From a virus: a stretch of DNA of 64,000 nt. Position numbers and translations under genes: made by a program. Positions 1,027 through 32,930 of this stretch are shown here, one piece after another. Each line of letters opens with the position of its first letter. Positions within the stretch are counted from its first letter, which is position 1. The stretch covers positions 1-64,000 of the IMG/VR virus record IMGVR_UViG_3300042504_002519. One strand, written 5' to 3'. The notes under the pieces are model-generated. The model saw only the letters and a program-made list of their open reading frames with translations. It did no database searches and was not told the DNA's origin.

Positions 1027-1102
1027 CCCCGCTGCGGTGGGGGTGTGTCGTGGGGGTGTGTCGCTGGACTGCTGCAGGCGGTGCGGATCCCACTGTGGTG
1101 GG
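1027..1102 (+). repeat. Two CRISPR-type hairpin repeats
   Basis: Stems CCCCGC/GTGGGG (1027-1042) and CCCAC/GTGGG (1089-1102) match the hairpin of the CRISPR arrays elsewhere in the window. Between them a TGGGGGTGTGTCG unit occurs twice (1038-1063). They lie between the ATPase stop codon and the early promoter, the same arrangement as the hairpins after cas5e. Confidence 0.7.
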
Positions 1103-2209: not shown

Positions 2210-2877
2210 CCCACGCTAGTGGGGATACTTGGCGACGTAGGATCCACCCCCACGAATGTGTGGGTCAAGGGCTGTCAGGATCTACCCCCACCGCAGTGGG
2301 GAACGCTAGCTGAGCCAGGGTGAAAAACTCCCACGATGGCGGGTAAGTTCCTGGACGGACTCCCACGGAGTGGGTTGATTTGTGTAGAGACAGACTCCCA
2401 CGGGGTGGGATAAGCGGGAACTATCGGAAAAACTCCCACCGAAGTGGGGAAGAAATACCTGAGCTAGGGCGACAGACTCCCACAATGGTGGGGCTAGTAG
2501 GCCCGGGCAATGGCAGACAGACTCCCACGGGGGTGGGGTGCATGAGTTAACCGCAAATTGACAGACCCCCACTTCGGTGGGGTGCGGGAACTGTCCCTGA
2601 TCGACAGACCCCCACCGGGGTGGGGCTAGCTGGCCTGAGGAAAGGGACAAACCCCCACCGAAATGGGGAGGTGGTTGCCAGGGCCTAGCCCATGTGCCTG
2701 CGGGCGTCGTAAGATCCACTCCCACCGAGTGGGGAGGTGTTTGCGAGAGCCGGGTACTAAGCCGGTAGCTAGGCCTTCTCACGAAAAACCCCCACCCTGG
2801 TGGGATGTGCTTTGCGAGAGCTAGTAAGCCACCAATTCTGCCCAGATCTTCACTAGAAGCACCCCCACCGAAGTGGG
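2210..2877 (-). CRISPR. CRISPR array A, type I-E-like, 15 hairpin repeats
   Basis: Fifteen hairpins (core CCCAC-N3/4-GTGGG) start at 2210, 2248, 2287, 2330, 2362, 2397, 2435, 2479, 2524, 2568, 2611, 2654, 2721, 2791 and 2864. Transcription is leftward from the leader at its right end. The three leader-proximal intervals are 67-73 nt, with full repeats that begin CTCGCAAA and end GTTTTTCG. The twelve distal intervals are only 32-45 nt, with reduced repeats followed by GTCTGTC-like handles. Leader-proximal spacers are about 32-34 nt, the type I-E length. Confidence 0.9.
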
Positions 2878-2935
2878 ATCCACTTACCACCAAGTTGTCA
2901 ATGTCCTGGCAGCAGTATAGCACATTGCTGGCCAG
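2878..2935 (-). promoter_or_regulatory. Leader of array A
   Basis: Read leftward it contains TGCTATACT (extended -10 like) and then TTGACAACTTGGTGGTAAGTG just before the first repeat. This matches the leaders of arrays B, C and D. Confidence 0.8.
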
Positions 2936-4178: not shown

Positions 4179-4823
4179 ATGAATTTCCCACATGATGTTG
4201 TCAGAGATGCCTGGGCCGTCCGCCATGGTGGCCGCACCGAGGTGTCCGTAGGCCAGGACCGCATTGATATCGTTGTTGATGGCGACCAGTACGACACGCT
4301 GGTGGAGGTAAAGCCTGCCCACCAGGTGCGGGAGGCCATCGGCCAGGCCAATAGCTACCAGAGACGCTGGACTCGGCCCAGCAAAAAGCACTTGCTGCTA
4401 TTTCATGAGACTGGCCTACCGGCTAAGTCTACGGTGGAGCGCCTACGGACCCACCAAGCCTCCGGTGAGTTGTCCAGCTTCACATGGGAGATAGTGCCAG
4501 CGGTGCCCCGGCCTAGCTACCACATTGCTGGGGTGCCGATCAGCTTTGAGCGGGCTAAGGCAGATATTTGCGGCCATGTGGCCCGCATCAAGCGCAGTTT
4601 CCAGGATGGCCCTATTGCCGCCAACGATAGGGCTTTCCTGCACTACCTAATTGTCGGCGGCCAACGCCAGGCCCAGGGCGCCCAGCTAGCCTGGGGCGAC
4701 AAGGGTATTGAGCTGCAGGTAGTGCGGTTCGACAACAACGTGTTTGGCTTGTCTGCCCGATCCGCTGCGGTGGACTGGCTCAGACAGGCTAACTACAAAG
4801 CTGTTTACGGAGGATCACGATAA
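4179..4823 (+). CDS. PD-(D/E)XK-like nuclease, first gene of the cas6e-cas7e-cas5e operon
   Basis: About 214 aa. Residues 15-70 fit a restriction-endonuclease fold: an N-terminal helix, TEVSVGQDRIDIVVDG supplying the Asp, then TLVEVKPA supplying the E-x-K pair, then REAIGQANSYQ with the Gln/Tyr helix typical of PD-(D/E)XK enzymes. It lacks the Fe-S cysteines of Cas4 and shows no HD or helicase motif, so it is not Cas3. The C-terminal 90 residues are unrecognised. Its stop overlaps the cas6e start (TAATG), so the genes are co-transcribed. It occupies the place of cas3/cas11 and may be a DNA-cleaving effector, which is inference. TTG at 4161 is an alternative start. Confidence 0.62.
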   Translation: MNFPHDVVRDAWAVRHGGRTEVSVGQDRIDIVVDGDQYDTLVEVKPAHQVREAIGQANSYQRRWTRPSKKHLLLFHETGLPAKSTVERLRTHQASGELSSFTWEIVPAVPRPSYHIAGVPISFERAKADICGHVARIKRSFQDGPIAANDRAFLHYLIVGGQRQAQGAQLAWGDKGIELQVVRFDNNVFGLSARSAAVDWLRQANYKAVYGGSR

Positions 4824-5506
4824 TGCTGTATTTGTCACGTTTTGCCCGGCCAGATGGCCATGGTAGCCTGCACCGCTATGTGATGGCGGGTTTTCCGGAT
4901 GATCTGGGCCCAGACCCCCGCAAGCAAGCTGGGGTGTTGTTTCGGGTTCAAGTCAATCGGGAGCCGGATTTTTTCGCTGCTGAAAATGACAATGAGTTGA
5001 TTGATAAGCGCGAATGCGCTGAAGGCGGATCCATTCTGGTGCAGTCAACCATGAAGCCGAAATGGCCAAAAAGCTATGAAGCTGAAGTGAAGCTGGAATT
5101 TAAGCCTAGCCTGCTAAAGGCGGAAAAGCGCTACCGGTTTCGTTTTGGTCTAAATTCCGTTGCCCAAAGTAACCGAGATGGCCGGTGCCGGCGTTATCCG
5201 GTGCCTGTTAGCCAATGGCTGGCGGCCAGGGAAGAAATGCTGGGCGCTACTTTTGACATTCGCAAAGTGGAGTCCATGGTTCTTTACGACCATGTAAGGC
5301 GAGAGCATTACACTCGTTCATTCCCCATTCATGTGTCGGTGATCGACGGATATTTACGTGTCACTGATCCCATCAAGCTGGCTCAGGCCATCCGCGAGGG
5401 CATTGGCCGGGAGAAGGCCTACGGCTGCGGGCTGCTGTCCTTGCTGCCGGTGGTGGCGGTGACTCCCGCGCCGTCGCCTGCCCTGGTGGGTGTGGCTCAA
5501 ACCTGA
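4823..5506 (+). CDS. cas6e: Cas6e (Cse3/CasE) CRISPR RNA endonuclease
   Basis: 227 aa, the usual length for Cas6e, with a strong ribosome site GGAGGA at 4808-4813. The N-terminal SLHRYVMAGFPDD (catalytic-His region of the first RRM) and the C-terminal Gly-rich signature REGIGREKAYGCGLLSLLPV are diagnostic for the Cse3 family. Cas6e cuts CRISPR transcripts at the base of the repeat hairpin and stays on the 3' end of the crRNA. Its likely substrate hairpin, CCCCAC-N4-GTGGGG, is abundant in this element and occurs twice in its own mRNA just after the stop codon, which suggests autoregulated cleavage. Confidence 0.9.
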   Translation: MLYLSRFARPDGHGSLHRYVMAGFPDDLGPDPRKQAGVLFRVQVNREPDFFAAENDNELIDKRECAEGGSILVQSTMKPKWPKSYEAEVKLEFKPSLLKAEKRYRFRFGLNSVAQSNRDGRCRRYPVPVSQWLAAREEMLGATFDIRKVESMVLYDHVRREHYTRSFPIHVSVIDGYLRVTDPIKLAQAIREGIGREKAYGCGLLSLLPVVAVTPAPSPALVGVAQT

Positions 5507-5513
5507 GCAGTGG

Positions 5514-5566
5514 CCCCACTCCGGTGGGCGTGGATCGACAACCAAAAAGGCCCCACAGGCGTGGGG
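5514..5566 (+). repeat. Two CRISPR hairpins inside the cas operon, between cas6e and cas7e
   Basis: CCCCACTCCGGTGGG (5514-5528) and CCCCACAGGCGTGGGG (5551-5566) have the array stem and a 37-nt interval, the same short spacing as the distal ends of the arrays. Both lie in the expected polycistronic mRNA, 37 nt or more before the cas7e start. Confidence 0.85.
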
Positions 5567-5602
5567 GTGGCCACCAGGCCCAGTCCTTAAGGGAGGAACC
5601 TT

Positions 5603-6838
5603 ATGTTTATCGAACTGCACCTGATCCATGCCTTGCCGCCCAGCAATGCCAACCGGGACAAGTCCGGGGCACCCAAAAAGATCCAATACGGTGGTAGCTG
5701 GCGGGCCCGGCTCTCCAGCCAGTCCCAGAAGCGGGCCGCCCGGCAGCACTACGAGCAATGGATGGCGGTTGACCGCAAGGCCTTAGCCTTTCGCAGCCGT
5801 CGCCATGACGTTGCCCTGGCTACCCGCCTAGCTTTCGGCGATGACGATGACAACCTGATGGTGGCCCGGTTCCTGCTGGGCTTATTCAACCTCAAGAACG
5901 ACAACCTGATCCCGGCCATGCTGGAGGAGCCCAGCAACTTGCTGTTCCTCTCAGAGCATGAGCTAGACACCATCGCCGCCATTGCCGCCGACTACCCGAT
6001 CTTGTTGCAGGACATGCTGGAGCGGGCCCAGCGTTATCGGGCAGCGTTGGATCCAAAGCCCAAGAAAGCGCCTGAGGCTGAGCATCCATCCGCCAGGGAT
6101 CTGCAAGGTATCCGCAAGGCCCTAGCCCAGCTAGGTCAGCAAGTGCCCGGTAGCGTGGCCCTGTTTGGCCGGATGATGGCCAGCCTGACTGAGGCCAGCG
6201 TCGATGGCTGCACCCAGGTGGCGGATGCCATCTCGGTTAATTCCTTTGGTATCACCAATGTCAAGGGCATGGGCCAAGTGATTGGCGAGCCAGACTTTTT
6301 CACCGCCGAGGATGATGTCGCTCCGATGGATGAAGAGGCTAAGGCTGGGGCGGGCCACCTGGGGGAGCTGCCTATCGTCTCGCCTGTGTACTACCGCTAT
6401 GCCAACCTCAATGTCACTGAACTAGCCTGCTTGGTTGGTGACCCTGGGCTGGCCCAACAGTTTGCCCGGGGATTCTTGACGGCATTCTGCGCTACCCTGC
6501 CCACCGGCTATATCCGCAGCCATGCCCACCTAACCCTGCCTGACTATGTGCAGATTAGCTGTACTGCTGCTCAGCCTTACACCTTGGCACCGGCATTCCA
6601 TGTGTCAATCAATAGCTGCACCACCGACGACGACTTCCTAGCCCAGGGTATCCCGCACCAGGCCGCTGATGCGCTGCGCCAGTACCAGGACCGGCTAAAC
6701 GTCATCTACGGCGACAAGTCGCTGTACAAAGCTGAAGTGACTACCCAGCCAGGCTGGTTCGGCCAGCCCCTGGACGGGGCCATTGATGGGGCCCTGCAAG
6801 TAGCCATGGGTGCTGGCAAGGAGGTGGCCTATGCCTAG
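5603..6838 (+). CDS. cas7e: Cas7e (Cse4/CasC) Cascade backbone subunit
   Basis: 411 aa with the Cas7e N-terminus (FIELHLIHALPPSNANRD, then SWRARLSSQSQKRAAR), the SSQSxKRAxR signature of the Cse4 family. Further family-like blocks are DAISVNSFGITN and LPIVSPVYYRYANLNV. In Cascade several copies polymerise along the crRNA spacer. The gene follows two repeat hairpins and has GGGAGGAACC as ribosome site. Unlike cas8e and cas5e it is full length (family about 350-400 aa, slightly long here), so a filament can still be built; its length would follow spacer length. Confidence 0.93.
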   Translation: MFIELHLIHALPPSNANRDKSGAPKKIQYGGSWRARLSSQSQKRAARQHYEQWMAVDRKALAFRSRRHDVALATRLAFGDDDDNLMVARFLLGLFNLKNDNLIPAMLEEPSNLLFLSEHELDTIAAIAADYPILLQDMLERAQRYRAALDPKPKKAPEAEHPSARDLQGIRKALAQLGQQVPGSVALFGRMMASLTEASVDGCTQVADAISVNSFGITNVKGMGQVIGEPDFFTAEDDVAPMDEEAKAGAGHLGELPIVSPVYYRYANLNVTELACLVGDPGLAQQFARGFLTAFCATLPTGYIRSHAHLTLPDYVQISCTAAQPYTLAPAFHVSINSCTTDDDFLAQGIPHQAADALRQYQDRLNVIYGDKSLYKAEVTTQPGWFGQPLDGAIDGALQVAMGAGKEVAYA

Positions 6839-7277
6839 GCTAGTCCTGAAGCTAGCAGGCCCCATGGCTGCCTATGGCACCGGGCCACGGCTGCAGCAAC
6901 GACTGACGGAGGATGCCCCAACTGAGTCGGCGATCCGCGGCATGTTGTGTGCTGCCCTGGGGATACGTCGAGGCCAGTCAGCGCCGGAACTGGACGGGCT
7001 GCAGGTGGAGATAGGCGAGACAAGCCATGGCGGAGTGTTGGAGGACTTCCACACCATCCGCGATGCTATCACCTATGACGGGGCCCCAGGCCGCAATGCC
7101 ATCACCACCCGGCACTACCTGAGCGACTTCAGTTCCACCGTTACCCTGCGGGGTGACTTGCAGCAGATCCGCACCATTGCCAAGGCGCTGGCCCGGCCCA
7201 AGTTCCAGCTATACCTGGGACGCCGTAACTGTGTCCCAACTGGCCCGATCTGGGCTGTTGCCCGGGAGGAAGTTTAG
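6831..7277 (+). CDS. cas5e: Truncated Cas5e (CasD)
   Basis: 148 aa. It starts within the end of cas7e (8-nt overlap) behind a strong AAGGAGGTG. Family hallmarks are LKLAGPMAAYGTGP, TESAIRGMLCAALGIRR, LEDFHTIRDA and the final YLGRRNCVPTGPIWAV. Cas5e caps the crRNA 5' handle. The usual length is about 220-240 aa; here the protein ends just after the LGRRxC block, so roughly 70 C-terminal residues are absent. The truncation parallels that of cas8e and looks like streamlining rather than decay, since both frames are clean. Confidence 0.88.
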   Translation: MPRLVLKLAGPMAAYGTGPRLQQRLTEDAPTESAIRGMLCAALGIRRGQSAPELDGLQVEIGETSHGGVLEDFHTIRDAITYDGAPGRNAITTRHYLSDFSSTVTLRGDLQQIRTIAKALARPKFQLYLGRRNCVPTGPIWAVAREEV

Positions 7278-7283
7278 CCGGTT

Positions 7284-7415
7284 CCCCACACTGGTGGGAG
7301 TAGTTCGTGTACTGCTTTAGCTCCCCACTGCGGTGGAGGTGGATCCAATATTTATAACAGGCCCCACCAGCGTGGGAGTGGATCCTATGTCAGTATCCCC
7401 TACTTCCCACCTGGT
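7284..7415 (+). repeat. Four CRISPR-type hairpins downstream of cas5e
   Basis: Stems CCCAC/GTGGG start at 7285, 7324, 7363 and 7406, intervals 39, 39 and 43 nt, with GT-N3-TC-like handles. No leader is present, so they would be transcribed by read-through from the cas operon. The last one runs into the GTGCCA promoter module. Confidence 0.8.
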
Positions 7416-7419
7416 GGGA

Positions 7420-7488
7420 GTGTGCCAGAAGTTGTGCCACTAATATACCCCTAGCATATTGACAGGCCCGATATACCCCGGCTATATT
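7420..7488 (+). promoter_or_regulatory. Early promoter module
   Basis: TTGACA (7459-7464), 18-nt spacer, TATATT (7483-7488). Two GTGCCA copies and TAATATAC lie upstream, as at 1104-1171. It drives the two small genes at 7543 and 8075. Confidence 0.8.
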
Positions 7489-7542
7489 GGTGACATGCCG
7501 CACCGCTACAGCGGCCATCCACACTACACAAGGATTAACGCT

Positions 7543-8010
7543 ATGAACACCGCCACTATCACCGCCACCCGCCACAATGGTTCTTTCGTCGCCTCCGCCT
7601 GGGAGTGCTGGTACGGAGCCTCTGACCGGGCCTGCCAAGCCACCGCCTGGGCCTGGGGCCTGTATACCGAAGCATTCTTTTCTGAAGCCGCCATGGCTCG
7701 TTACCGCTGGGCTGGCCAGATGATTGCCTGCCTGGGCCTGCTGGCCTACCTGGCTGGCAAGCTGATCCGCTTGTGGCTACAGCCCAGGGTTGATGCCTGG
7801 GTAGATAGCTGCCAAGCCCCTGAGCCCGTCCAGGAGGCCCCAGAGCCAGCCCCGGCACCGGTAGCTAGCCCAGTGCCCCAACCCCAACCCGAGGCCACCC
7901 CGCTGGCCGCCCTGGGTATCCGGGAGTTGCGCAAGCTGGGCACTGCTCGGGGCGTCAAGGGTGCAGCTCGGATGAAAAAGACTGAGCTACTGGCCAGCCT
8001 AGCGGCCTAG
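7543..8010 (+). CDS. Membrane protein with C-terminal SAP/Rho-N-like domain
   Basis: 155 aa; the start at 7543 follows AAGGATTAACGCT and is preferred over upstream codons inside the promoter. A hydrophobic segment (MIACLGLLAYLAGKLI, about residues 60-75) is followed by a Pro/Ala/Glu-rich linker. The C-terminal 32 residues (LGIRELRKLGTARGVKGAAR then MKKTELLASL) fit the helix-extended-loop of SAP or Rho N-terminal domains, which bind nucleic acids. It may tether DNA or RNA to the membrane. It lies directly downstream of the cas operon but has its own promoter. Confidence 0.6.
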   Translation: MNTATITATRHNGSFVASAWECWYGASDRACQATAWAWGLYTEAFFSEAAMARYRWAGQMIACLGLLAYLAGKLIRLWLQPRVDAWVDSCQAPEPVQEAPEPAPAPVASPVPQPQPEATPLAALGIRELRKLGTARGVKGAARMKKTELLASLAA

Positions 8011-8351: not shown

Positions 8352-8378
8352 TGGTTGCGCCATTTGGCTAGAGTTGTG

Positions 8379-8429
8379 TGCTATAGTGGTGGCAGGAACC
8401 TTGACAACTTGGTGGTAGGTGACGGTGGA
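8379..8429 (+). promoter_or_regulatory. Leader of array B
   Basis: TGCTATAGT (extended -10 form, 8379-8387), then CAGGAACC and TTGACAACTTGGTGGTAGGTG leading into the first repeat. It is nearly identical to the leaders of arrays C and D. Confidence 0.82.
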
Positions 8430-8838
8430 CCCACTTCGGTGGGGGTTTCTCCTTCGCTCCCCCCACGGTGGCCACTATTCGGCCTAAGCAAAACACACCC
8501 CACTTCGGTGGGGGTTTCTCGCTTAGTGGCATTGCCCATCTTTAGCGCTGGCCTCGCAAAGCACACCCCACTCCGGTGGGGGTTGATCTACGGCCATCGA
8601 CAACGATCAGGCCATGCCTATCTCGCAAAGCAGGCCCCACCTCGGTGGGGGTTTCTCGGTCTGTGGCGTGTCGTGGTGGATGGTCTGCCTAACGTGACTC
8701 GCAAACACCTCCCCACTCCGGTGGGGGTTATTCGTGGGCCTACCTCTCCATCGTAAACGGCGGTTTCGCCATCCCCACTTCGGTGGGCGTTCTTCCAGCC
8801 CGTACCTCTCCTATACCCCACCCCTGTGGGAGTTTTCG
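8430..8838 (+). CRISPR. CRISPR array B, 7 repeats
   Basis: Hairpin cores start near 8430, 8498, 8566, 8635, 8711, 8773 and 8816, giving intervals of about 69, 68, 69, 76, 62 and 43 nt. The full repeat is about 37 nt: CTCGCAAA, then CACACCCC or CACCTCCCC, loop TTCG or TCCG, GTGGGG, GTTTCTCG. Spacers 2 and 3 are exactly 32 nt. The terminal interval collapses to 43 nt as in the other arrays. The last 8 nt of the repeat (GTTTCTCG) would be the crRNA 5' handle after Cas6e cleavage. Confidence 0.92.
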
Positions 8839-8872: not shown

Positions 8873-9760
8873 TTAAATATCCACGTAGTCCGAGCTGAAC
8901 ACCCCATTAAAATGCGCGTAGCGATCCATTGTGAACGACGGCTTCGCGTGTCCTAATTGCTGTGCAATGCTCCACCAGTCTGAGCCATGGGCGGCTGCGG
9001 TGACAGCATGGGCATGGCGCAGCCAGTGGGGGCTAGCCTGGGGCTTGCCGATCCTGGCCATGGCCACCTTCACCCATTGCCACGCGATAGGGTAGGGTAC
9101 CGGGAATATTTCGTCCTGGTCCAGCGCATCCTCTGGCCGGGCCTGAACCAGCGCGTCGTAGACCGCCTTAGAGCAGCCGATCTCTCGGGCCTTGTCGCCC
9201 TTGCCGTGGTGGATAGCCAGGAACACCCGCTGGCCGCGTAGGTGCAAGTCACACCACCGCACCGCTAGCGCCTCGCTGGCCCGAACGCCAGTAGCAAATA
9301 GGAAGCGCAGGAATAGCTTAGCCTCCAGGCTGGGTTCCTTGGCAATGGCCCGACGCATCTCGCCCTCGGTTAGGATCCGTTCCGCCATGACTGGCCGGGG
9401 CTTGCCTAGCCGGTAGACGGCGTGGGGGACATTAAATTGCAGGTAACGAATGGAGCTGCCGAACTTCCACAGCGACTTGATAGCCGCCTTGTGCAGGTTG
9501 CAGGTAGCATCGCTCCAGCGCTTCGGGAACGTGGCCTCGTAGTCGATTAGCATGGCCGCTGTGACCATGGCTAGCTGGTGGCAGTCGTGGTGGGCTAGCC
9601 AAGCCCGTAGCCGGGTGATCGCTCGACGGTAGGCTTTCTGGGTGCCAGCACTTCGGGAACGACTGATCCACATCTCGATCAGGTGGTCGTCGCTACTGGC
9701 CTGCTGCAGGGCAAGGCTAGCAGTCTGGGAGGGCTGGGAGGTGACGGTAATAGTATCCAT
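8873..9760 (-). CDS. Tyrosine recombinase (phage integrase family)
   Basis: 295 aa from the ATG at 9760. It has the N-terminal SAM-like core-binding domain (SAGTQKAYRRAITRLRAWL) and the C-terminal catalytic domain: ATGVRASEALAVRW (Arg I), a beta-strand Lys in HHGKGDKAREI, SPHWLRHAHAV (HxxR), QLGHAKPS, and the nucleophile in MDRYAHF. All catalytic positions are present. It would integrate, excise or resolve the element. It overlaps or abuts the upstream nuclease gene (stop at 9765), so the two are probably co-transcribed. Two further recombinases lie at 32333 and 45016. Confidence 0.88.
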   Translation of the reverse strand: MDTITVTSQPSQTASLALQQASSDDHLIEMWISRSRSAGTQKAYRRAITRLRAWLAHHDCHQLAMVTAAMLIDYEATFPKRWSDATCNLHKAAIKSLWKFGSSIRYLQFNVPHAVYRLGKPRPVMAERILTEGEMRRAIAKEPSLEAKLFLRFLFATGVRASEALAVRWCDLHLRGQRVFLAIHHGKGDKAREIGCSKAVYDALVQARPEDALDQDEIFPVPYPIAWQWVKVAMARIGKPQASPHWLRHAHAVTAAAHGSDWWSIAQQLGHAKPSFTMDRYAHFNGVFSSDYVDI

Positions 9761-9764
9761 GGCT

Positions 9765-10457
9765 TCAGGGTGCCCAGTACCCTTGTTCCCCATGCTCGAA
9801 ACGAGCACTTCTAGCGGCGGTGAAAGCCTGGAGCAGTGGGCCAGCAAGAGGATCTATGTCGATATTGACTGAGGCAGAATCTACTATGTCTGATCCCGCA
9901 TGGCTTTTTAAGTCATACACTCCCGGCCAACATTCGTGACATAGCCAAAAATTTTCGTTTTCAAGCATTCCAATCATCCACCCTCTATGCCGCCAAGTAG
10001 GATAAACACTTTCTTCTTTGCAGTTAAATTGTGGAGGAGTATGCAGAAAAGCGCTTATATCATACTTGACGCGATCTGGGTTTAATCTGTATCCATTCAG
10101 CCTGTAAACGCAATTCTCATCTTCGGTGAAGTCTATCCAGGGCTGGCTCTGGATAAGCAATACCTTTTGACGGGAAACTTCTGCTAGTCTATTGCAAAGA
10201 ACCCACGCAGAATCGCCATTCTGCTTTGATTCGCCATTGCTATTAAACGTCGGGGACGCGACTAGCTTGGGCTTTATTTCTACCCATGCCTGCCAATCCT
10301 CGATCCAAAAGTCTGGAAGATACCAGTCCCCATCAAGGTTGAACCCTTCGGGCTCATAGGTCCAGTTCAGCCCCAGGGCATCAAAAAACACAGCCCACCG
10401 AGCCTCTAGCCTGGAGCGGAACCGGTAGCCACGGAACTCGGTTGTTATTGCTTGCAT
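9765..10457 (-). CDS. PD-(D/E)XK-type phage endonuclease
   Basis: 230 aa. The N-terminal 65 residues match a common phage nuclease type: YRFRSRLEARWAVFFDALGL (helix with catalytic Glu), WTYEPEGFNL, then YLPDFWIEDWQAWVEIKP, giving PD and E-I-K catalytic residues. The rest, with several Trp and Cys (LCHECWPGVYDL), is unrecognised. Proteins like this are scattered in phages and plasmids and may act in replication, recombination or host DNA breakdown. It is the first gene of a leftward pair with the integrase. Confidence 0.7.
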   Translation of the reverse strand: MQAITTEFRGYRFRSRLEARWAVFFDALGLNWTYEPEGFNLDGDWYLPDFWIEDWQAWVEIKPKLVASPTFNSNGESKQNGDSAWVLCNRLAEVSRQKVLLIQSQPWIDFTEDENCVYRLNGYRLNPDRVKYDISAFLHTPPQFNCKEESVYPTWRHRGWMIGMLENENFWLCHECWPGVYDLKSHAGSDIVDSASVNIDIDPLAGPLLQAFTAARSARFEHGEQGYWAP

Positions 10458-20444: not shown

Positions 20445-20626
20445 GCGCCACCATCGCCCGGCTGCGCCCCTGCCTGGCCGGGCGGCTATCCATTTTTCTG
20501 CATACACGGGCCCAGTACTTACGCCAGATCATTGCTAGGCACCCTGAGGATGGGGCTGCACAGCACGAACTGGAGCTAGTGCTAGCCCAGATCCGATACC
20601 TACCCTTTATTGAGGAACGACCATGA
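20441..20626 (+). CDS. Small Arg/Leu-rich protein (61 aa)
   Basis: GTG start at 20441 overlapping the preceding stop. Helical and basic (RLRPCLAGRLSIFLHTRAQY). No family recognised. It overlaps the next gene by 4 nt (ATGA), so the four small genes from here are translationally chained. Confidence 0.55.
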   Translation: MSATIARLRPCLAGRLSIFLHTRAQYLRQIIARHPEDGAAQHELELVLAQIRYLPFIEERP

Positions 20627-20960
20627 ACTTACCCGCTGACCCTACCCGCACCGAGATCTTGGCCTACCTGCTGGCCTACTCAGCCTACTGGCGGGGTGAA
20701 CTAGAGAGCGCTATGGATGCGGCCAATGTGCCGTCGAGCAGCATTAACGCCATCCAGGGCGACTTATCTGCCGCCCTGTTTGCTGAAACGACCATGAACT
20801 TACCCGCTGACCCTACCCGCTCCGAGGTGCTGGCCTACCTGCTGGCCTACTCAGCCTACTGGCGGGGTGAACTAGAGAGCGCTATGGATGCGGCCAATGT
20901 GCCGTCGAGCAGCATTAACGCCATCCAGGGCGACTTATCTGCCGCCCTGTTTGCTGAAAT
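20623..20960 (+). repeat. 171-bp tandem duplication
   Basis: Unit 1 is 20623-20793, unit 2 starts at 20794. They differ in only a few bases (ACCGAGATCT against TCCGAGGTGC) and at the extreme 3' end. Confidence 0.92.
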
Positions 20961-21441: not shown

Positions 21442-22302
21442 ATGTTGACCACGCGACGGCTATCAGATGAAGTCCTCGAAATCCGGATCCGCTACACCGG
21501 GGAGGAAACCTATCACTTTTTGTTGGCCAGCGACATTCACCTGGATAACCCAAAGTGTGATCGCAAGTTATTCTTTTCTCACCTCGACAAAATGAAGGCT
21601 CTCGGTGGTAGGGCCTTATTTTTTGGTGATGTGCTATGCCTGATGCAGGGCAAGCGCGACAAGCGGGGCAGCAAGGCCAGCATTCGCCCCGAGCACCAGG
21701 GCGCCAACTACTTTGACTTGGTATTCAAGGAGTCCGCTGACATTCTGGCACCCTACGGCCAGGAGATCCTAATGATGGGCAACGGCAACCATGAGACAGC
21801 CATCATCAACCACCAGGAGATAGATCCCCTGGCTAATGTGGTACAGCAGCTGCGGGGCCGCCACGGGGCCATCACCGAGCACATGGGCTATCAGGGCTGG
21901 ATCCGGTTTGTGTTTTACAAAGAACGGGGCCGAGGCGTCGAGGCTGTTCGGCGGTGCAACCTGTTCTTTCACCACGGGGCCTGGGGTGGTATTGTCACCA
22001 AGGGCACCATGGGCGGTGGCCGGTATGCCAGCATTGCACCGGACGCGGATATTATCGTCAATGGCCACAATCACGAGCGCAGCATCGTTTCTCACCCTTG
22101 CTACCGGTTGATCGAAACCGGCAAGGTGCGGGTGACGCCCCGATACCACGTGCAGTCTGGCACCTACAAGGAGGAGTTCGCTGGTAGCAACGGCTGGGCG
22201 GTGGAGCGGATCGTCATGCCGAAATCTCTAGGCGGCGTCTGGCTGAGGCTGACTCCCACTAAGTCCGCTGGCGTTGTGGTTTCACTGGAACCGGCTAGCT
22301 GA
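21442..22302 (+). CDS. Calcineurin-like metallophosphoesterase
   Basis: 286 aa with the metallophosphoesterase motifs in order: FLLASDIHLDNP (D-x-H), LFFGDVLCLMQ (GD), MMGNGNHET (GNHE), LFFHHGAWGG (H) and IIVNGHNHERS (GHxH). Such enzymes in phages hydrolyse phosphodiesters or nucleotides. Right after the last motif comes RSIVSHPCYRLIETG, the peptide whose homologues are encoded by two spacers of the array immediately downstream (22383-22414 and 22529-22560). It sits alone between a terminator and array C and has no obvious promoter of the early family. Confidence 0.9.
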   Translation: MLTTRRLSDEVLEIRIRYTGEETYHFLLASDIHLDNPKCDRKLFFSHLDKMKALGGRALFFGDVLCLMQGKRDKRGSKASIRPEHQGANYFDLVFKESADILAPYGQEILMMGNGNHETAIINHQEIDPLANVVQQLRGRHGAITEHMGYQGWIRFVFYKERGRGVEAVRRCNLFFHHGAWGGIVTKGTMGGGRYASIAPDADIIVNGHNHERSIVSHPCYRLIETGKVRVTPRYHVQSGTYKEEFAGSNGWAVERIVMPKSLGGVWLRLTPTKSAGVVVSLEPAS

Positions 22303-22315
22303 AATCGGTTAACTG

Positions 22316-22361
22316 TGCTATAGTAAAGGACAGGAACCTTGAAAATTTGGTGGTAAGTCGA
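22316..22361 (+). promoter_or_regulatory. Leader of array C
   Basis: TGCTATAGT at 22316-22324, then CAGGAACC, TTGAAAATTTGGTGGTAAGT and the first repeat. Same order and near-identical sequence as leaders A, B and D. Confidence 0.82.
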
Positions 22362-22856
22362 CCCACTTTGGTGGGAGTTTTTCAAGGTCTATCGTCAGTC
22401 ACCCCTGCTACCGGCTATACTGGCCTGGATCCCACTTCGGTGGGGGTTTTTCGCACTCAGTCGGTAGCCACTCGCGGCCAGCGCCAAAGCCTACCCCACC
22501 CCAGTGGGGGTTTATCTGGGAGTTTTTCGCCACCCCTGCTACCGGATGATCGAAACCACGCTGGCCTGGATCCCACCCTGGTGGGCGTTTTTCGCTCGAT
22601 AAGGGATCCCCATTTTGGTGGGGGTGTATCCGAAGACTGGCAACGATATGGCCCCACTTCGGTGGGAGTGGTTCTTTCCCCGTGGTTAGCCCCGCGCTGG
22701 TGGGGGTGGCTCTCGCTTTGTGCCCGCCCCACCCTGGTGGGAGTTCGTCCCAACTCTGGTTGTACCCCATCCTGGTGGGGGTTTATCTTGACTATGGCGA
22801 CTCCCCACTGCTGTGGGAGTGTGTCAATCTGCAGTTCGCCCCCCACTCTGGTGGGA
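22362..22856 (+). CRISPR. CRISPR array C, 11 repeats
   Basis: Hairpin cores start at 22362, 22431, 22495, 22572, 22608, 22653, 22691, 22728, 22766, 22804 and 22842. Intervals are 69, 64 and 77 nt next to the leader, then 36, 45, 38, 37, 38, 38 and 38. The 5' part of two proximal repeats reads CTGGCCTGGATCCCAC. Proximal spacers 1 and 3 encode peptides matching the upstream metallophosphoesterase; spacer 2 (starting about 22453) is 32 nt with no match seen here. Distal units carry a reduced repeat followed by GT-N3-TC handles. Confidence 0.92.
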
Positions 22857-22915
22857 GTAAAACCCAATTGTAAGCAAATTGCGGTAGACTGGATTTGTTA
22901 GATGCACCACTCCGA

Positions 22916-22939
22916 CCCCGGCCACGGCTGGGGTTTTTT
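22916..22939 (+). terminator. Rho-independent terminator
   Basis: CCCCGGCC/GGCTGGGG-type stem followed by TTTTTTG. It closes the array C transcript just before the small terminase gene. Confidence 0.75.
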
Positions 22940-22945
22940 GTTGCC

Positions 22946-22955
22946 TGGGCATTCT
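22946..22955 (+). promoter_or_regulatory. Late element TGGGCATTCT upstream of terS
   Basis: TGGGCANNCT family; 6 nt before the ATG at 22962. Confidence 0.55.
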
Positions 22956-22961
22956 GGATCC

Positions 22962-23585
22962 ATGGCAACCAAGAAACCCACACCAAAGCTACGATCCAAG
23001 CATGCGCCCAAGCCAGCACCTGGTGCTAGGCGGGGCAACCGGCAGGTGGTAAAAACGTCCGGCCAGCCTGCTACGCCAGCCTGCAAGGAGCGGGCTTTTG
23101 AGCTGTACTGCGAGCTGGGGCCTCAATGGGCTGAAATATCCAGGCGACTGAAGGGCGAAGGCTTTAACCGCTGTGGCAATACCACGATCAGCGGCTGGGC
23201 CAAAGCAGGCGACTGGCACGCCAGAAAGCTGGCTTTGTCGGAGTCACCAGGCGAAGCGGCAAAGGTGCCCCACAAGGCCAAAGTAGCACCGCCCCCACCG
23301 CCTGCTACGGACATAGGCAGCTACCGCACCAAAAAGACCAACCTGGAGCACGTCAGGACGGCGATTGAGCAGGTGGTGCAGTCGATCTGCGACGCACGGG
23401 CCACCAGCGACCTGCGGGCCATTGGCAGCTTGGCTACGGCGTTGGTAAAGCTGATTGAGTTGGAAGGCAAATTGAGCCCCGCCACGGCATCCGAGCTAGC
23501 AGCCAGGGCCGTAGATCTGGGCCTGGATCCAGAGCAATTTATGGCCGCATTGGCGGAGCAATGGCGGATCGCCAAGGCTGGCTAG
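22962..23585 (+). CDS. Phage terminase small subunit-like protein
   Basis: 207 aa. A basic disordered N-terminus (KKPTPKLRSKHAPKPAPGAR) precedes a helix-turn-helix region ERAFELYCELGPQWAEISRR, then CGNTTISGWAKAGDWHARK, the pattern of small terminases/DUF1804-type proteins that bind the packaging site. A Pro-rich linker and a long helical C-terminal region follow (LEHVRTAIEQVVQSICDARA). The ATG at 22962 is preferred because it follows a terminator and late element. Unusually, the large terminase gene is 11 kb away. Confidence 0.65.
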   Translation: MATKKPTPKLRSKHAPKPAPGARRGNRQVVKTSGQPATPACKERAFELYCELGPQWAEISRRLKGEGFNRCGNTTISGWAKAGDWHARKLALSESPGEAAKVPHKAKVAPPPPPATDIGSYRTKKTNLEHVRTAIEQVVQSICDARATSDLRAIGSLATALVKLIELEGKLSPATASELAARAVDLGLDPEQFMAALAEQWRIAKAG

Positions 23586-23587
23586 AA

Positions 23588-24212
23588 CCCCCACCGTGGT
23601 GGGGATAGCCTAGCAAGTGAACAACGCCCACAGGGGTGGGGATGGTTTGACGAGGGAGAGACGCCCACGGAGGTGGGGCTGCGTCTTGCAGGCAGGATCA
23701 ACGCCCACCAAAGTGGGGCTGGCTGCAAGGACGAGAGACCCCCACGGTGGTGGGATGTGATGCAGTTCTAGGAAGTACTCCCACCGAAGTGGGGAGGTGT
23801 TTGCGAGGGAGCTATCCACCGCCGCTAGGGTTTCCTTAGCGAGAAACCCCCACCGAAGTGGGGAGGTGTTTGCGAGTTGCCTAGCAGCTCCCCCAGGTTG
23901 GCCTGCTCGAGGAACCCCCACCGAAGTGGGGTGTGCTTGCGAGATGGCTAGGGTGATGGCACCCGACCTAGTAAGGCCAGAGAAACCCCCACCGGAGTGG
24001 GGTGTGCTTTGCGAGGGCCCAGCTGGATACCGTGGCATCGGAGCTATCCACCGAGAAACCCCCACCGGAGTGGGGTGTGCTTTGCGAGGACCGCCAAGCA
24101 ACTTTAAGCAGGTGAAACAAAATGAGGAGAAACCCCCACCGAAGTGGGGAGGTGGTTGCGAGACACGGCGCTGGCCGATAGCCAAAACCACGAAAAACCC
24201 CCACCGGAGTAG
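23588..24212 (-). CRISPR. CRISPR array D, 12 repeats
   Basis: Hairpins start near 23588, 23628, 23663, 23703, 23739, 23778, 23848, 23916, 23986, 24058, 24133 and 24199. The leader is at the right end. The six leader-proximal intervals are 66-75 nt with full ~37-nt repeats (CTCGCAAACACC, TCCCCAC, TTCG, GTGGGGG, TTTCTCG in transcript sense); the five distal intervals are 35-40 nt. Spacers near the leader are about 28-38 nt. The array starts 2 nt after the terS stop codon and is antisense to terS transcription. Confidence 0.92.
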
Positions 24213-24266
24213 GATCCACCGTCACTTACCACCAAGTTGTCAAGGTTCCTACCTACCACTATAGCA
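24213..24266 (-). promoter_or_regulatory. Leader of array D
   Basis: Read leftward: TGCTATAGT (24266-24258), AGGAACC, TTGACAACTTGGTGGTAAGTG, then the first repeat. Matches leaders A-C. Confidence 0.82.
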
Positions 24267-24280
24267 CGGATCCACCAGCC

Positions 24281-32877: not shown

Positions 32878-32930
32878 CCCACCATTGTGGGGCCTGCATC
32901 CCCTGGCCGAACCACTCCCACGCATGTGGG
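32878..32930 (+). repeat. Two CRISPR-type hairpins after the recombinase gene
   Basis: CCCACCATTGTGGGG (from 32878) and CCCACGCATGTGGG (from 32917), interval 39 nt, immediately at the recombinase stop codon. Same short period as the distal array units and the cas operon hairpins. Confidence 0.75.

Follow-up and report, generated by a model that had tools for sequence, protein, structure and literature searches.

The phage examined here carries four leader-headed repeat arrays together with Cascade genes of its own, and two segments of one of them, array C, encode peptides of a metallophosphoesterase (MPE) whose resident gene adjoins that array. We consider it probable that these two segments are CRISPR spacers belonging to a phage-encoded, reduced type I-E system which is used for exclusion between phages. 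The window analyzed (64,000 nt) is a portion of the 77,534-base virus record IMGVR_UViG_3300042504_002519, and its features are collected in Table 1. The phage records compared are metagenomic and of unconfirmed completeness, and gene absences were read from three of them.

Table 1. Arrays, spacers and genes located in the window.
Feature	Position	Strand	Basis or remark
Two-hairpin cluster, imperfect mini-array	1028..1102	+	Hairpin scan
Array A	2210..2923	-	Leader about 2878-2923
Truncated Cas8e/Cse1-like protein, 272 aa	3291..4109	-	hhalign against 82 Cse1 sequences: probability 95.8, E 8e-9, 202 columns
PD-(D/E)XK-like protein, 214 aa, candidate effector nuclease	4179..4823	+	Motif D30, E43-V-K45, Q56xxxY60
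Cas6e	4823..5506	+	Pfam PF08798 E 1e-26; PADLOC Cas6e 5e-28
Leaderless mini-array between cas6e and cas7e	5515..5567	+	Hairpin clusters with handle
Cas7e	5603..6838	+	Pfam PF09344 E 2e-66; NCBIfam TIGR01869 above cut-off
Cas5e	6810..7277	+	NCBIfam TIGR01868 above cut-off; PADLOC 1e-40
Leaderless mini-array after cas5e	7285..7418	+	Hairpin clusters with handle
Array B	8377..8830	+	Leader 8377-8429
Resident MPE (DNA repair exonuclease family)	21442..22302	+	phrog_7339 E 3.8e-16; 237 viral relatives
Array C leader (TGTGCTATAGT ... GGAACCTTGAAAATTTGGTGGTAAGT)	22315..22361	+	Kept before arrays A, B and D and in sister phages
Array C	22362..22855	+	11 hairpin repeats; first units long, distal units ~38 nt
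Spacer C1 (unit 1)	22384..22419	+	Encodes RSIVSHPCYRL of an MPE homologue
Spacer C3 (unit 3)	22529..22560	+	Encodes HPCYRMIETT of an MPE homologue
Small gene between arrays C and D	22902..23585	+	Terminase-small-subunit-like by inspection only; matched by two sister-phage spacers
Array D	23588..24267	-	Leader 24214-24267
Leaderless mini-array	32878..32930	-	Hairpin clusters with handle

Array anatomy and conservation

The unit common to the arrays consists of CCCAC, a loop of 3-5, GTGGG and then an 8-nt handle, NGTNNNTC. In the long units the repeat extends to ~36 nt (e.g. CTCGCAAAGCACACCCCACTCCGGTGGGGGTTTCTC) and the spacers measure about 29-41 nt, while distal units leave only about 15-22 nt from the handle to the next hairpin. 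The leaders of all four arrays bear TGTGCTATA-like and TTGAMAAYTTGGTGGTARGT elements. As is expected of CRISPR arrays, we find leaders, unique spacers, turnover at the leader end and matches to foreign elements. The turnover is apparent from the units common to sister phages, which include 9 of 67 long, mostly leader-proximal units and 37 of 64 short ones, a distribution anticipated if the arrays change at the leader end. The distal short units common to the arrays of G001, G002 and G010 give the impression of an old core that each array has conserved.

Conservation is also evident at the level of the RNA. Among hairpins with a single substitution, 24 of 26 keep the stem through a G-U wobble, where ~1 in 6 would be expected, and selection therefore acts on the RNA. 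Comparison with Rfam gave no match at the gathering threshold. The repeats within an array are not near-identical; the core hairpin and handle pattern is kept while the loop, the 5' half and the handle vary, and the first repeat departs from the others in its 5' half. Both features are a misfit to simple CRISPR adaptation by duplication of a leader repeat.

Spacers C1 and C3 and the resident metallophosphoesterase

The initial annotation had proposed that C1 and C3 read in frame as the conserved peptide of the adjacent MPE, and the translations bear this out. The reading part of unit 1 (22385-22417, AGGTCTATCGTCAGTCACCCCTGCTACCGGCTA) yields RSIVSHPCYRL, identical at 11/11 residues to the resident protein, whose corresponding site is 22078-22110 (the 22079-22111 given earlier was one base off). 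Unit 3 reads HPCYRMIETT, as had been stated, and the 15-mer reported to be common to both spacers, CACCCCTGCTACCGG, is found at 22400-22414 and again at 22531-22545. The codon differences claimed for C1 are likewise real, amounting to 6/11 codons and 11/33 nt relative to the resident gene, every one of them synonymous; random sets of 11 substitutions preserved the peptide in 0 of 1,000,000 trials. Since all 11 differences are synonymous, the divergence arose in a working gene before capture, and the source of C1 is, as judged from its codons, a functional foreign MPE homologue. On the same grounds we ruled out C1 as a decayed copy of the resident gene. The 27-nt core of unit 3 has one mismatch to the sister-phage genes of G001 and G002 (26/27 nt) and two to the resident gene. 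As the C1 differences are all synonymous and the nearest matches are in sister or other MPE-bearing phages, we agree with the annotation that the two spacers derive from homologous genes of other phages; both also mismatch the resident gene as it had predicted (C1 at 11/33 positions, C3 at about 7/32).

To assess the significance of these matches, the spacers and 1,200 dinucleotide shuffles of them were compared with 13 related phage genomes whose arrays had been masked. The unit 3 match was equalled by 0/1,200 shuffles at the nucleotide level, and that of unit 1 by 1/1,200 at the nucleotide level and 0/1,200 at the peptide level. When 60 distinct long spacers from six related phages were examined in this way, four were clear of nearly all shuffles, none of them an exact match, and most of the 60 had no match in the related phage genomes compared. 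Two of the four are C1 and C3, and the other two match the next gene: a 27-nt spacer of array D in G002 (3 mismatches, 23459-23485) and a 34-nt spacer of array B in G011 (7 mismatches, 23184-23217). This small gene gave no match to PHROG profiles. A spacer common to G002 and G010 resembling an XRE-type repressor was set aside, such a resemblance being as frequent as expected by chance among 60 spacers.

The two spacer targets are neighbours on the genome, and in three of the four significant cases the matched gene adjoins the array carrying the spacer. This clustering may reflect acquisition near a packaging site or local capture by recombination, and the proximity of these three matches to their own arrays means that recombinational capture of nearby sequence must be weighed. 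A database search with unit 1, as the annotation had recommended, did recover MPE homologues, with 5 mismatches, but no exact match; the exact protospacer sought for unit 3 was absent from IMG/VR in a degenerate peptide-pattern search, and a degenerate-pattern search with the two sister-phage spacers found no exact target phage. No tested spacer thus had an exact protospacer, and the flanks available for defining a PAM are those of four diverged targets only.

Cas genes and a candidate nuclease

Cas7e and Cas5e are recognized above curated NCBIfam cut-offs, and Cas6e lies above its Pfam cut-off and 0.7 bits below that of NCBIfam. The Cas8e-like protein is more remote, its homology being visible only by profile-profile comparison (Pfam Cse1 gives no match); the score obtained with a smaller profile was unmatched by 200 column shuffles. 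It covers roughly the N-terminal half of Cse1, with the C-terminal half missing. The gene directly upstream of cas6e, with which it has base 4823 in common, encodes a candidate PD-(D/E)XK nuclease, an assignment based on its motif, which is invariant across three phages, and on weak profile matches (the Pfam SfsA RE domain at E 3e-4 in all 3 sister proteins, just below the curated cut-off). All five genes are under purifying selection, with dN/dS of 0.04-0.19 between sister phages (0.14-0.19 for the Cas8e-like gene). The Cas8e-like and PD-(D/E)XK-like proteins were also modelled with AlphaFold, at a mean pLDDT of about 35, and these models were set aside.

Profiles of Cas1, Cas2 and the Cas3 HD domain gave no match in the three phages, while the controls matched. 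The same was true of Cse2 (Cas11) by Pfam, although extreme divergence could hide one; a Cse2 concealed in the nuclease-like protein or in three nearby small proteins was considered, and none of the four matched Cse2 profiles. Given that Cas1, Cas2, Cas3 and Cse2 were not detected, the phage genome alone explains neither acquisition nor cutting.

Relatives of this Cas7e with >80% identity were found on only three other virus contigs, and the best cellular matches found are only about 33-35% identical. Relatives of the PD-(D/E)XK-like protein were found neither in the GTDB set, searched with narrow peptide patterns, nor on plasmids. Two further virus contigs, L223 and L224, which may be host sequence, carry distant Cas7e, Cse1 and Cse2 genes in canonical order.

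Leaderless mini-arrays

Perfect hairpins outside the four arrays sit in small clusters, where a shuffled genome averages 0.6 such hairpins, and further leaderless clusters lie beyond the window in the same record (67750-67915 and 75950-76024). In all 17 clusters with at least two perfect hairpins, drawn from three phages, the handle follows each perfect hairpin save the last. As read from the sequence, this layout would give one crRNA fewer than there are hairpins (n-1), each with a short guide of about 15-17 nt (~16). The possibility that the short guides are self-targeting was explored and rejected, as their matches to the own genome are not above those of shuffles in three phages.

Discussion

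In the mechanism that we favor, the arrays would be transcribed from their own leaders, and cleavage of every repeat by the phage Cas6e, at the 3' base of the CCCAC-loop-GTGGG hairpin, would release crRNAs in which the guide is preceded by the 8-nt 5' handle and followed by a hairpin at the 3' end. On these crRNAs a surveillance complex would presumably form from Cas5e, Cas7e and the short Cas8e, and spacers from the MPE and neighbouring small gene of relatives would aim it at co-infecting or superinfecting relatives, the resident gene being spared through its mismatches. Without Cas3, the target might be cleaved by the PD-(D/E)XK protein whose gene lies next to cas6e, or it might merely be bound and silenced. 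Spacers would probably be gained via the Cas1-Cas2 of the host or by recombination between phages. The initial annotation had arrived at phage-phage warfare or superinfection exclusion from the two spacers; an aim at related phages is upheld by the two sister-phage spacers that match the small gene adjoining the MPE, though that reading missed the phage's own Cascade proteins, the four arrays and the leaderless mini-arrays. We also entertain, tentatively and with more doubt than confidence, a fuller version in which the phage's type I-E derivative has a stand-alone PD-(D/E)XK nuclease in place of Cas3 and uses guides of two kinds. Full-length spacers of the leader-headed arrays would be directed against rival phages, and ~16-nt guides, located in old array units and in leaderless intergenic mini-arrays, would serve for regulation or as decoys.

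It could be argued that the MPE-like and small-gene-like units are not products of CRISPR adaptation but fragments captured beside the arrays from co-infecting relatives by recombination, the arrays themselves having spread by recombination at their hairpins. The origin of three of the four significant matches in an adjoining gene (array C by the MPE, array D of G002 by the small gene), the non-identity of repeats within an array and the failure to find Cas1 or Cas2 on the phage are all in keeping with this idea. However, array B of G011 matches the small gene, which in G000 lies ~14 kb from array B, the matched stretches occupy the spacer position between the handle and the following repeat, and acquisition near a packaging site would yield an equal concentration of targets; on balance we regard such capture as unlikely. 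A still less probable proposal is that the hairpin arrays are decoys, RNA anti-CRISPRs that mimic the type I-E repeats of the host and sequester its Cas6e and Cas7e, such that the spacers are irrelevant. Phages do put solitary repeat units to such use (PMC10651486), and the short-guide units and leaderless clusters leave little room for a full guide, but a decoy would not account for Cas5e, Cas6e, Cas7e and Cas8e genes of the phage's own under purifying selection, nor for multi-unit arrays with leaders whose guides are homologous to other phages.

The alternative that we take most seriously, while not preferring it, accepts the complex and holds that it binds without cutting and silences its target genes in the manner of type IV-A, the PD-(D/E)XK protein being unrelated to interference. 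Transcriptional repression of targets is the type IV-A mode (PMC12669027, PMC11656645), and a missing Cas3 and a Cas8e that lacks its C-terminal half would accord with it, yet the nuclease-like gene stands directly before cas6e, with its D/ExK motif intact in three phages. That the hairpins are ordinary intergenic repeats or terminators, with spacer matches due to coincidence, is scarcely credible. T runs do follow some hairpins and most of the dispersed clusters occupy spaces between long ORFs; nevertheless, this would leave unexplained the leaders, the handle, the polarity and the nearby cas6e-cas7e-cas5e genes, as well as the omission of the handle at the last hairpin only in 17/17 leaderless clusters and spacer matches that beat those of shuffles.

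Considered as a reduced type I-E system, the phage set shares with canonical type I-E its Cas7e, Cas5e, Cas6e and Cas8e-like subunit and a hairpin repeat with an 8-nt 5' handle. It differs in that Cas3, Cse2, Cas1 and Cas2 were not detected, in its variable spacer lengths, in a Cas8e of about half length encoded on the opposite strand, and in the placement of cas6e before cas7e and cas5e. Type I-E derivatives with another nuclease beside or instead of Cas3 are known in I-E2, where an HNH domain is fused to Cas5, and I-E3, where PD-(D/E)xK is fused to Cas11 (PMC12669027, PMC10910872); the phage PD-(D/E)XK-like protein is, in contrast, separate, with no HNH and no detectable Cas11 part. Precedents exist both for phage CRISPR systems that lack adaptation genes and for viral mini-arrays aimed at related viruses (PMC7162821, PMC6858448, PMC11656645). 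Virus-borne mini-CRISPR arrays hold 1-2 spacers and have no cas genes (PMC6858448); they resemble the present arrays in their leaders, their spacers against close viral relatives and superinfection exclusion (putative in the present case), but this phage has four arrays and its own Cascade genes. Huge phages and ICP1 likewise encode Cas proteins, often without adaptation genes, and carry spacers against other phages or elements, although in huge phages the example is an I-C variant whose Cas3 is replaced by a helicase, and ICP1 has a complete I-F system (PMC7162821, PMC6452262). One type IV-A system is able to rely on the I-E adaptation of its host (PMC11656645), which provides a precedent for a phage array without Cas1-Cas2. 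Cyanophage N-1 also bears a CRISPR array (PMC4916379). RNA anti-CRISPRs share phage-encoded repeat-like hairpins, but theirs are solitary and come with no effector of their own (PMC10651486). Within the open-access literature, the present arrangement equals none of the compared systems in full.

If our reading is correct, an ordinary-sized phage would possess a compact Cascade, directed by the virus against relatives of its own, that lacks adaptation genes and has a candidate new nuclease as partner. The system has so far been seen only in a few metagenomic phages forming a small clade, with no close cellular relative among those searched, and its small protein set is suited to laboratory reconstitution. 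Furthermore, natural short-guide units kept across phages would directly test what truncated crRNAs do.

Host and other features of the record

The host is likely a cyanobacterium, as the tail sheath protein is nearest to that of a Leptolyngbya phage, followed by those of other cyanophages and some Streptomyces phages. A tyrosine integrase gene at 8873-9847 suggests a temperate lifestyle, in which a phage would profit from excluding its relatives. Searches with the phage DNA and of PDB sequences found no close relative. The HIP1 palindrome GCGATCGC, sought as a clue to the host, is absent from the present phage and is in excess in the MPE-sharing phages G003-G007, in place of two other palindromes that are over-represented in the whole record and likewise in G001 and G010, namely TGGATCCA (28 copies against ~1.1 expected) and CTGGCCAG (26 against ~1.9). 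Elsewhere, an FtsK/TraD-like ATPase at 13-1020, upstream of the cas region, is kept in sister phages and is longer in G010, and a small protein after cas5e (7459-8010), with a Rho_N-like C-terminus, is kept next to array B. Positions 20603-20944 hold a 171-nt tandem duplication whose copies are 94% identical.
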